Origin: Armatimonadota bacterium
Lineage (GTDB): Bacteria > Sysuimicrobiota > Sysuimicrobiia > Sysuimicrobiales > Humicultoraceae
Length of the DNA: 62,500 bases
Reading direction: 5' to 3'
NCBI GenBank assembly: GCA_031459715.1
Contig: JAVKIA010000010.1
Coordinates: 1-62,500, forward strand
A model generated the notes under the pieces. It ran no database searches, had not been told where the DNA came from, and worked only from the letters and a program-made list of their open reading frames with translations. The position numbers and the translations under genes were made by a program. Of this stretch, positions 30,153-34,570 are shown piece after piece. Numbering within the stretch: position 1 is the first letter of the stretch; each line of letters starts with the position of its first letter.

Positions 30153-31516
30153 GTGCTGGTAGCCGCCCCGGGCGGCTGTTTGGCACCGACGGCATTCGTG
30201 GGGTGGCCAACCGCGACCTCACGGCGGAACTGGCCCTGCGCGTCGGCCGCGCCCTGGTGGCCACCCTGGGGCGCGGCGCCTACCTGCTGGGACGGGACAC
30301 GCGCCTCTCCGGGCCGATGCTGGAGGCGGCCATCGCCGCAGGGATCTGCGCCGGGGGCGGCGACGTGGAGCGCGGCGGGATCCTCCCCACCCCGGCGGTG
30401 GCCTTCCTCACGCGCCACCTGGGCCGTCCCGGGGGTATCGTCCTGTCCGCCTCACACAACCCCATCGAGGACAACGGCATCAAGCTCTTCGGTCCGGACG
30501 GCTTCAAGTTCCCCGACGAGGTAGAGGAGCGTATCGAGGCGGCCATGGGACGGGAGGAGCCGGCGCCCTGGGGGAGAGGGGTGGGAGGCGCCCGCGATCT
30601 GCCGCAGGCGGAGGACCTCTACCTGGAGTACCTGCTGGGCCTGGGGCTGCGGCCGCCGGGAGGGCTGCGCGTGGTCGTGGACTGCGCCTTTGGGGCCGCC
30701 TACCGCGTGGCGCCGCGGCTGTGGCGGGCGCTGGGGGCGGAGGTGGTGGCCCTGCATGCAGAAGCCGACGGGGGGAGGATCAACGTGGGTTGCGGCTCCA
30801 CCCACCCGGAGCTGTTGCAGCAGGCGGTGGTCTCCTCCGGTGCACAGGTGGGCTTTGCCCACGACGGGGACGCCGACCGCGTCATCGCCGTAGACGAACG
30901 CGGGGAGGTGGTGGACGGCGATGCCATAATGGCCATTTGCGCCAGCTACCTGGCCGCGCGGGGGGCGCTGCCGGGTGGCGTGGTGGTGGCCACGGTGATG
31001 AGCAACCTGGGCCTGGAGCGGTACCTGGCCGGCGAGGGCATCCGCCTGGAACGGACGCAGGTGGGCGACCGTTACGTCCTGGAACGAATGCGCCAGCTGG
31101 GAGCGGCGCTGGGCGGTGAGCAAAGCGGGCACGTTATCTTCCTGGAGAGGGCCACCACCGGCGACGGCCTGGTCACCGCCCTGCACCTGGCGCACATCAT
31201 ACGGGAGAGCGGGCAACCGCTGTCCGCGCTTGGCGCCGGGTTCACCCGCTACCCGCAGGTCCTGCGCAACGTCCGCGTGGCCGACCGCAGCGCCTGGTCC
31301 GAGGACGAAGAGGTGCGCGCTGCCCTGGATGCGGCTGAGGGGCGCCTGGGCCAGCGGGGGCGCATCCTGGTGCGACCCAGCGGGACGGAGCCGCTGGTGC
31401 GGGTAATGGTCGAGGCGGAAGAGGCGGCGGAGGCCGATGAGATAGCCGGGGCGGTGGCGCAGGTGATCGCCCGGCGACACGGTGATCCGGCCGGAGGGGA
31501 GAGCTATGGCGCGTGA
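30149..31516 (+). CDS. glmM: Phosphoglucosamine mutase
   Basis: This 455-residue enzyme converts glucosamine-6-phosphate to glucosamine-1-phosphate for UDP-GlcNAc. It shows RLFGTDGIRGVAN, the phosphoserine loop VLSASHNPIEDNG, the metal loop HDGDADRV, GGEQSGHVI and the phosphate-binding RPSGTEPLVRVM. Length is normal. It starts at GTG overlapping cdaR and overlaps the next gene by 11 bp. In other bacteria GlmM and CdaA interact, tying wall precursor supply to c-di-AMP. Confidence 0.96.
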   Translation: MSAGSRPGRLFGTDGIRGVANRDLTAELALRVGRALVATLGRGAYLLGRDTRLSGPMLEAAIAAGICAGGGDVERGGILPTPAVAFLTRHLGRPGGIVLSASHNPIEDNGIKLFGPDGFKFPDEVEERIEAAMGREEPAPWGRGVGGARDLPQAEDLYLEYLLGLGLRPPGGLRVVVDCAFGAAYRVAPRLWRALGAEVVALHAEADGGRINVGCGSTHPELLQQAVVSSGAQVGFAHDGDADRVIAVDERGEVVDGDAIMAICASYLAARGALPGGVVVATVMSNLGLERYLAGEGIRLERTQVGDRYVLERMRQLGAALGGEQSGHVIFLERATTGDGLVTALHLAHIIRESGQPLSALGAGFTRYPQVLRNVRVADRSAWSEDEEVRAALDAAEGRLGQRGRILVRPSGTEPLVRVMVEAEEAAEADEIAGAVAQVIARRHGDPAGGESYGA

Positions 31517-32372
31517 GGAGCGCGCGCTGCCCCCTGCGGGCCTGCCGGTCGTGGACCTGCTGGGGGTGCCGGTACACCCCATCTCGCTGCCCGAAGCGGT
31601 GGCGTTTCTGGAGGAGGCCGTGGTCCGCCGACGGCCGGCGACCGTGATCTCGCTGAACGGGGCGCTGCTGGTACGGGCGCTACGAGACCGCCAGCTCCGC
31701 GAAGCGGTCTGCGCCGCCACTCTGGTCATCCCCGACGGCGTGGGCGTCGTGCTGGCGGCGCGCATCCTGGGCGTCCCCCTGCACCGTCGCCTCCCAGGGG
31801 TGGACCTGGCGGAGGCGCTGTGCGCCGCGGTGGCCGCGCGATGCGGCCGGGTCTTCCTCCTGGGCGCCGCCCCGGGGGTGGCCGAAGCCGCGCTGGAGAG
31901 GTTGCGGCAGCGGTACCCGGGGCTGGAGGGCGTCGGGGTGGCCCACGGCTTTTTCCGCCCGGAGGAGGAGGCGGCGCTGCTGGCGCGCATCGCGCGGGCG
32001 CGACCGGACGTCCTCCTGGTGGCGCTGGGCGCACCCCGCCAGGAGCAGTGGATGCATCAACACGCGCCGGCGCTGGGCGTGCCGGTGGTCATGGGGGTAG
32101 GGGGCACTCTGGACGTGCTGGCGGGTCGGGCGCGACGCGCGCCGCGCTGGGTGCAGACCCTGGGCCTGGAGTGGCTCTACCGTGCGGCCCGTGAGCCGTG
32201 GCGCTGGAGCGTGGTCAGGACGATCCCGCCGTTGTTCCTGGTTGCCCTGCGGGAGCGCCTGCGCGCGGCCCGCCGCTACCGCTCGCGAACAATCCGTTCC
32301 GGAGGGACGGCGGCGCCTGATCCGGCCCTGCGGCCCGGCACCAGGAGCCGCCCCGGGAGCACGGCGAAATGA
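31506..32372 (+). CDS. WecG/TagA/CpsF-family glycosyltransferase
   Basis: This 288-residue GT26-type protein shows DLLGVPVHPISLPEAV, ATVISLNGALLVRAL, LVIPDGVGVVLAARIL, LLGAAPGVAEAALERL, GAPRQEQWMHQH and VGGTLDVLAGRARRAP. The family transfers N-acetylmannosamine(uronic acid) to lipid-linked GlcNAc in teichoic acid or common antigen synthesis. ATG at 31506 follows a GGAGGGGAG site, so I prefer it to the start at 31482. Its place after glmM fits use of UDP-HexNAc. The last 35 residues are basic and low in complexity. Confidence 0.87.
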   Translation: MAREERALPPAGLPVVDLLGVPVHPISLPEAVAFLEEAVVRRRPATVISLNGALLVRALRDRQLREAVCAATLVIPDGVGVVLAARILGVPLHRRLPGVDLAEALCAAVAARCGRVFLLGAAPGVAEAALERLRQRYPGLEGVGVAHGFFRPEEEAALLARIARARPDVLLVALGAPRQEQWMHQHAPALGVPVVMGVGGTLDVLAGRARRAPRWVQTLGLEWLYRAAREPWRWSVVRTIPPLFLVALRERLRAARRYRSRTIRSGGTAAPDPALRPGTRSRPGSTAK

Positions 32373-32439
32373 GAGGGTGCGTGGGTGGTGCCTGGATGAT
32401 AGGGTGAGAGGAGGTGAGAGCGGCACCGGAAGACACGGA

Positions 32440-32620
32440 GCCGTGCCGCAGCGCCTGATCCTCTTCCGCTACCACCGCAAGCGGGGTTCTGCTGCCGAAC
32501 GGCAGGTAGCGGGGGAGGATGACGAGGGAGGGGACCTCGGAGCTTTCGGCGGGTGACCCTAGGCCTGGTCCGGGCCTGCACGGCCTCCGCTCCAGCACGC
32601 CACGGAGCCGGAGGGAAGGG
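32440..32620 (+). ncRNA. glmS ribozyme/riboswitch (glucosamine-6-phosphate responsive)
   Basis: The leader of glmS holds the full conserved core in order. Cleavage-site AGCGCC is at 32450-32455 with the predicted cut between A32450 and G32451. A 16 bp P2 helix pairs 32458-32473 with 32505-32520, including two G-U pairs. GACGAGG follows at 32521-32527 and TTCGGCGGGTG at 32545-32555. This matches the known glmS ribozyme layout (RF00234). Binding of glucosamine-6-phosphate triggers self-cleavage and loss of glmS mRNA. The 3' boundary is approximate, because P3.1 and P4 were not folded. It fills most of the 350 bp gene-free stretch before glmS. Confidence 0.92.
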
Positions 32621-32725
32621 GATGCGCAAACCCCGGCGGTGACGCCGGCCCAACCGCCCCCCGGGACGTCATGGCGACAACCCAGGGCATATTCTTTCCT
32701 GGTGCCCGCGAGGCGGAGGGTTCCT

Positions 32726-34566
<1,841 letters not shown>

Positions 34567-34570
<4 letters not shown>

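Follow-up and report, generated by a model that had tools for sequence, protein, structure and literature searches.

Which RNA element occupies the leader of glmS in this uncultured bacterium, and how would it control the gene? The window (the entire 62,500-nucleotide stretch analysed) belongs to an uncultured hot-spring/soil bacterium of the Sysuimicrobiota (formerly CSP1-3), placed by inference from its relatives; the initial annotation had expected just such a high-GC, non-classical host. The phylum includes Fervidifonticultor tertius and consists of one class and one order (PMC11604079); the single-order class in our genome set agrees with this. The comparison set comprised 43 genomes of the order, i.e., the whole class, all of them draft MAGs, in seven families (f1 to f7); the window's genome (G000) is 97% complete and has a congener, G001. 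In the GlmS tree, f1 and f2 form one group (support 88/90) inside a group of f1, f2, f5, and f6 (92/92). The gene order is cdaA, a cdaR-like open reading frame (ORF), glmM, a WecG/TagA-family gene (31482-32372), the candidate ribozyme, glmS (glutamine--fructose-6-phosphate transaminase [isomerizing]; 32726-34570, ATG at 32726; TIGR01135, 825 bits), acpS, and the NAD(P)H-hydrate epimerase/dehydratase gene. The element had been placed downstream of cdaA-cdaR-glmM; these genes are present (the cdaR-like ORF had no NCBIfam match), but the WecG/TagA-family gene sits between glmM and the ribozyme. The RNA features described below and glmS all lie on the + strand.

The element in this leader is very probably a glmS ribozyme (RF00234 family), as the initial annotation had proposed; its identity rests on sequence, structure, position, and homology. 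AGCGCC, P1, GACGAGG, P2, and UUCGGCGGGUG are located 276 nt upstream of glmS. In the standard nomenclature, P1 and the P2/P2.1/P2.2 double pseudoknot form the core, and P3, P3.1, and P4 form the periphery (PMC11602151). AGCGCC occupies positions 32450-32455 and, in the RF00234 alignment, places the cleavage site between A(-1) at 32450 and G(+1) at 32451, exactly where the cut had been predicted. P1 (32458-32520) follows as a 16-bp helix (32458-32473 paired with 32505-32520, including two U.G pairs) whose fold is far more stable than shuffled sequences (minimum free energy, -38.6; z, -5.1). This helix had been reported as P2; the helix is real, but it is P1 in the standard nomenclature (PMC11602151), and P2 is the AGGG/CCCT pairing at 32529-32532 and 32557-32560, which amounts to 4 bp plus one non-standard pair relative to the Rfam helix. 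The catalytic core (32521-32560), aligned to RF00234, contains GACGAGG (32521-32527) and TTCGGCGGGTG (32545-32555), confirmed in the sequence at the places first given for them, and P2 is accompanied by UUCGGCGG(A/G)UG. CGCC (32452-32455) is complementary to GGCG (32548-32551), as expected of the P2.2 pseudoknot. Across 11 f1/f2 sequences, the core hardly varies. P1 is capped by two possible small hairpins (32475-32484 and 32493-32504), consistent with the internal hairpins originally noted in this arm, but a multi-hairpin cap is not common to the congener, which has a simple P1. In some f2 ribozymes (L012, L010, and L136/L145), P1 is enlarged by apparently repetitive inserts (e.g., GGTCGTAGGTCATAGGTCGTAGG in G026), and similar repeats recur downstream.

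The ribozyme does not end at 32620, as first drawn; it continues to about 32667 with P4, its internal loop, P4.1 with a GNRA cap, and the partner strand of P3.1. Alignment with relatives defines P3 (AGGCC/GGCCT with loop L3, TGGTCCG; 32561-32577), and their comparison identifies a hairpin inserted between P3 and P4, here termed P3a (CTCCG/CGGAG; 32585-32607), which is present in f1 and f2 and absent from f7. Folding of the next segment (32618-32661) gives P4, the adenine-containing internal loop IL4 (AAA..CCCAA), and P4.1 (CCGGCG-GTGA-CGCCGG) with the GNRA loop L4; the fold is nested, but the stability of P4.1/P4 does not differ significantly from that of shuffles (z, -1.4). By eye, P4.1 shows compensatory variation in the relatives (e.g., CCGGAG/CTCCGG). 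The 3' strand of the P3.1 pseudoknot, GGAC (32664-32667), pairs with GTCC of L3 (32568-32571), and this complementarity, again judged by eye, survives sequence changes in most relatives (e.g., GTTCC/GGAAC and GGTCC/GGACC). One relative, G037 (L014), carries a long mobile-repeat-like insertion in the P4.1 loop, the remainder of its ribozyme being intact. The window ribozyme thus shares with those of Thermoanaerobacter tengcongensis and Bacillus subtilis (RF00234) the cleavage site, P1, the P2/P2.2 core, P3, the P3.1 pseudoknot, P4 with a GNRA-capped P4.1, an A-rich IL4, and the position upstream of glmS. It differs from them in being very GC-rich, in its 16-bp P1 with a small-hairpin cap, in P3a, in a probable additional helix (P0) that links the 5' flank with the stretch following P3, in a Shine-Dalgarno-like element 5' of the cut, and in that no RNase J was found in its genome.

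When the whole window was scanned against Rfam with the gathering thresholds applied, there was no match. A local scan with RF00234 matched 32439-32598 to model positions 1-167 (27.5 bits; E value, 9.3e-5; whole-genome E value, 1.7e-4), below the gathering score of 37 bits. The covariance scan proposed with the initial annotation therefore yields a local match that falls short of that score, and the outcome it had named as evidence against a ribozyme, no significant covariance match, is ambiguous here because the window lies under the Rfam threshold. Across the class, 30 of the 43 genomes match RF00234 and 27 exceed the gathering score, the highest value being 89 bits; the match in the congener, which precedes its glmS, reaches 57.5 bits, and one further ribozyme was spotted by eye upstream of glmS in G011. 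Since 27 of the 43 genomes exceed the gathering score, the window match is more than chance. The window element aligns with these relatives, which ties it by orthology to accepted glmS ribozymes. The automatic call, a detection threshold rather than a biological feature, misses the window and passes the 27 relatives; the sub-threshold score is a limit of the Rfam model, and it fits the expanded P1 and the insertion before P4, which throw off the distal part of the Rfam alignment. The reading of this leader RNA as something other than a ribozyme, or as a chance resemblance, in favor of which only the score under the gathering threshold speaks, is already contradicted by the 27 genomes that pass it and with which the window aligns, and its probability is negligible.

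A decayed ribozyme in the process of being lost from the lineage would also account for a score of just 27.5 bits and for a weakened P2 and P4. The genus g2, in the window's family, and the sole f6 genome have no element before glmS, and RNase J, the textbook effector, was not found, all of which could be read in this way. The core residues that are invariant among relatives are nevertheless intact, P1 is long, the GNRA L4 and P3.1 are kept, and the congener reaches 57.5 bits; we regard decay as very unlikely. Cleavage of the window ribozyme and its ligand are predicted from the sequence. The literature examined made no mention of a glmS ribozyme in this host; the upstream helix may have been described elsewhere.

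That upstream helix, P0, pairs GCCGTGC (32440-32446), which ends 3 nt before A(-1), with GCACGGC (32578-32584), which adjoins the 3' end of P3. On the strength of covariation between the two strands, P0 is probably a real helix specific to the f1+f2 branch. The analysis covered 11 f1/f2 genomes with readable 5' flanks, which are related sequences. In their common layout, GCAC and then three variable bases come after P3, and in the 5' flank GUGC, itself preceded by three variable bases, stands 3-4 nt before A(-1). The four inner pairs are invariant in 11/11 genomes, and the three outer positions vary with compensatory changes (position 5, G-C or C-G; position 6, C-G, U-A, or U.G; position 7, U.G, G-C, or U-A). 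Of the 77 cells, 84% are paired, compared with 75 +/- 2.5% in shuffles that keep relatedness (0/500 as high) and with no more than 46% when the strands are slid; the score for covariation was 0.166, versus 0.062 in such shuffles (0/500). In an exhaustive comparison of 6-bp registers (approximately 6,700 offset pairs), with one strand taken from the 60 nt preceding the cut and the other from 130 nt surrounding the post-P3 segment, P0 ranked first (60/66 cells; next unrelated register, 47). Native partners gave longer pairing than permuted ones (0/5000), with an energy P value of 0.025. GUGC near the cut was not found in 57 outgroup leaders, nor was GUGC at the P0 spacing found in 19 f4/f5/f7 leaders. 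G005 and G007 retain just the four invariant pairs.

Thermodynamic folding of the P3-P0-P3a segment gave a different local minimum-energy fold, no better than shuffles, so P3 and P0 rest on comparison rather than on energy. In the window, a local hairpin (32420-32426/32443-32449) competes for the 5' bases of P0; as a functional element of its own, this 7-bp hairpin (z, -2.0) was rejected, being absent from the congener. The main alternative to P0 is that the element is an ordinary glmS ribozyme whose P0 complementarity reflects shared ancestry and chance, without function. Known glmS ribozymes require hardly any sequence 5' of the cut, closely related genomes are among those compared, and the number of pairs with changes on both sides is no higher than in shuffles (139/500). 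Set against these points are the constant 3-4 nt spacing of GUGC in all 11 f1/f2 genomes, with no GUGC found near the cut in the outgroup leaders or at this spacing in the other class leaders examined, three positions altered on both sides (C-G/G-C and C-G/U-A swaps), and the unique optimum among the approximately 6,700 offsets. We therefore consider an ordinary ribozyme with a functionless P0 unlikely, and a genuine P0 helix the better reading of the f1/f2 leaders.

Further 5' lies a Shine-Dalgarno-like GGAGGTG (32410-32416) with no start codon after it. GGRGGTG was present in the upstream search interval of 25 of 27 class leaders, compared with 2.4% of control windows from the same loci, and the relaxed form GGRGGKG occurred at -27 to -40 from the cut in all 30 readable class leaders. 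A start codon followed at 4-11 nt in 1 of these 30 leaders (33% expected). The motif was rare in other leaders, being found in 1/30 TPP leaders of the same genomes and in 8/57 outgroup glmS leaders, and no conserved pairing partner for GGAGGUG was found in the ribozyme region of f1/f2. Strong Shine-Dalgarno sequences without start codons stabilize messages in Bacillus (PMC3997798), as described for the STAB-SD elements of the cryIIIA/cry3A leaders (Agaisse and Lereclus 1996, as cited in PMC3997798). The element here resembles STAB-SD in being a strong Shine-Dalgarno sequence near the 5' end of the leader without an associated start codon. It differs in lying upstream of a self-cleaving ribozyme, so that the cut would detach the putative stabilizer, and in that RNase J, the nuclease to be blocked, was not found in the window's clade. 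We hypothesize that GGAGGUG is a stabilizer detached by cleavage.

GGAGGUG might instead serve a leader peptide as its Shine-Dalgarno sequence, or it might be a promoter-proximal signal. It matches the anti-Shine-Dalgarno sequence, and promoter-like TATAAT/TACAAT/TACACA boxes lie upstream of it in some leaders, but the dearth of start codons at the proper distance (1/30), the by-eye lack of conservation of frames from the GTG of the motif, and its restriction among these genomes' leaders (1/30 TPP leaders) speak against it. A leader peptide starting at the GTG of GGAGGTG, open in the window to the TGA after AGCGCC, was rejected for lack of conservation. The leader-peptide or promoter explanation is a serious contender, if somewhat short of an even chance, for what the stabilizer hypothesis ascribes to message protection.

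In B. subtilis, RNase J1 destroys the 5'-OH product of glmS cleavage (PMC3997798). RNase J (TIGR00649, over the cutoff) was present in 20/20 f3/f4/f7 genomes and in 0/23 f1/f2/f5/f6 genomes, a clean split by family, though all genomes are draft MAGs; the 97%-complete G000 had no match. Bacillus-type control would need RNase J to act on the 5'-OH product, and no RNase J was found in the window's genome, a point that concerns the mode of repression and not the identity of the ribozyme. RNase E/G and RNase Y are present in almost all genomes. Some f1 genomes gave weak RNase J matches; the two examined are metallo-beta-lactamase/RMMBL proteins of 470-490 amino acids and were set aside, and no such protein was found in G000. 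Of the genomes in which RNase J was not detected, at least 13 keep the ribozyme (four f1, eight f2, and one f5).

No ribozyme precedes glmS in L108, L110, L111, and L112 (genus g2) or in L180 (G015, the sole f6 genome); at these loci only a short gap separates glmS from the gene before it, which suggests at least two losses of the ribozyme. In f4, a fructose-1,6-bisphosphatase gene of the FBP aldolase/phosphatase type lies between the ribozyme and glmS (L016, 1835-2962, G018; PF01950, 532 bits), and five further f4 genomes (L113, L114, L115, L118, and L119) also have the N-terminal motif of the bisphosphatase upstream of glmS; with the gene in this position, not just GlmS but also the supply of F6P would come under the control of the ribozyme. 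In f7 (L002, L004, L006, L007, and L008), the stretch from the ribozyme to glmS contains a further conserved self-complementary segment, GGCAGYGGGYGG ... CCGCTGCC; Rfam names nothing in this stretch in the two loci scanned (L124 and L130).

Regarding the action of the window ribozyme, accumulated glucosamine-6-phosphate would bind the preformed pocket of the P2/P2.1/P2.2 double pseudoknot and join the acid-base catalysis of the cut between A32450 and G32451, and the cut would lower glmS expression. P0, adjoining the inserted hairpin P3a, probably fastens the substrate strand on the 5' side to the P3/P4 periphery, and it may retain the 5' product after the cut. Cleavage would also detach from the coding message a leader element resembling a ribosome-binding site without a gene. 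The function proposed for P0 and the mode of repression are likewise predictions. As a tentative and still doubtful proposal, these leaders may represent a distinct glmS ribozyme subfamily, in which P0 holds the substrate strand in place on the upstream side of the cut. In hosts without RNase J, silencing would then take another route, e.g., the message would be severed from its 5' ribosome-docking stabilizer and left to RNase Y or RNase E/G, and P0 would determine for how long the 5' fragment stays attached.

This ribozyme extends a known class by a new member from an uncultured phylum, and its score illustrates that the Rfam threshold overlooks genuine GC-rich glmS ribozymes. The glmS ribozyme is not known to need pairing 5' of the scissile bond, and such pairing would be a natural means of influencing how the substrate is positioned and how the product is released. 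The lineage provides a natural test of gene control by the glmS ribozyme where RNase J is absent.
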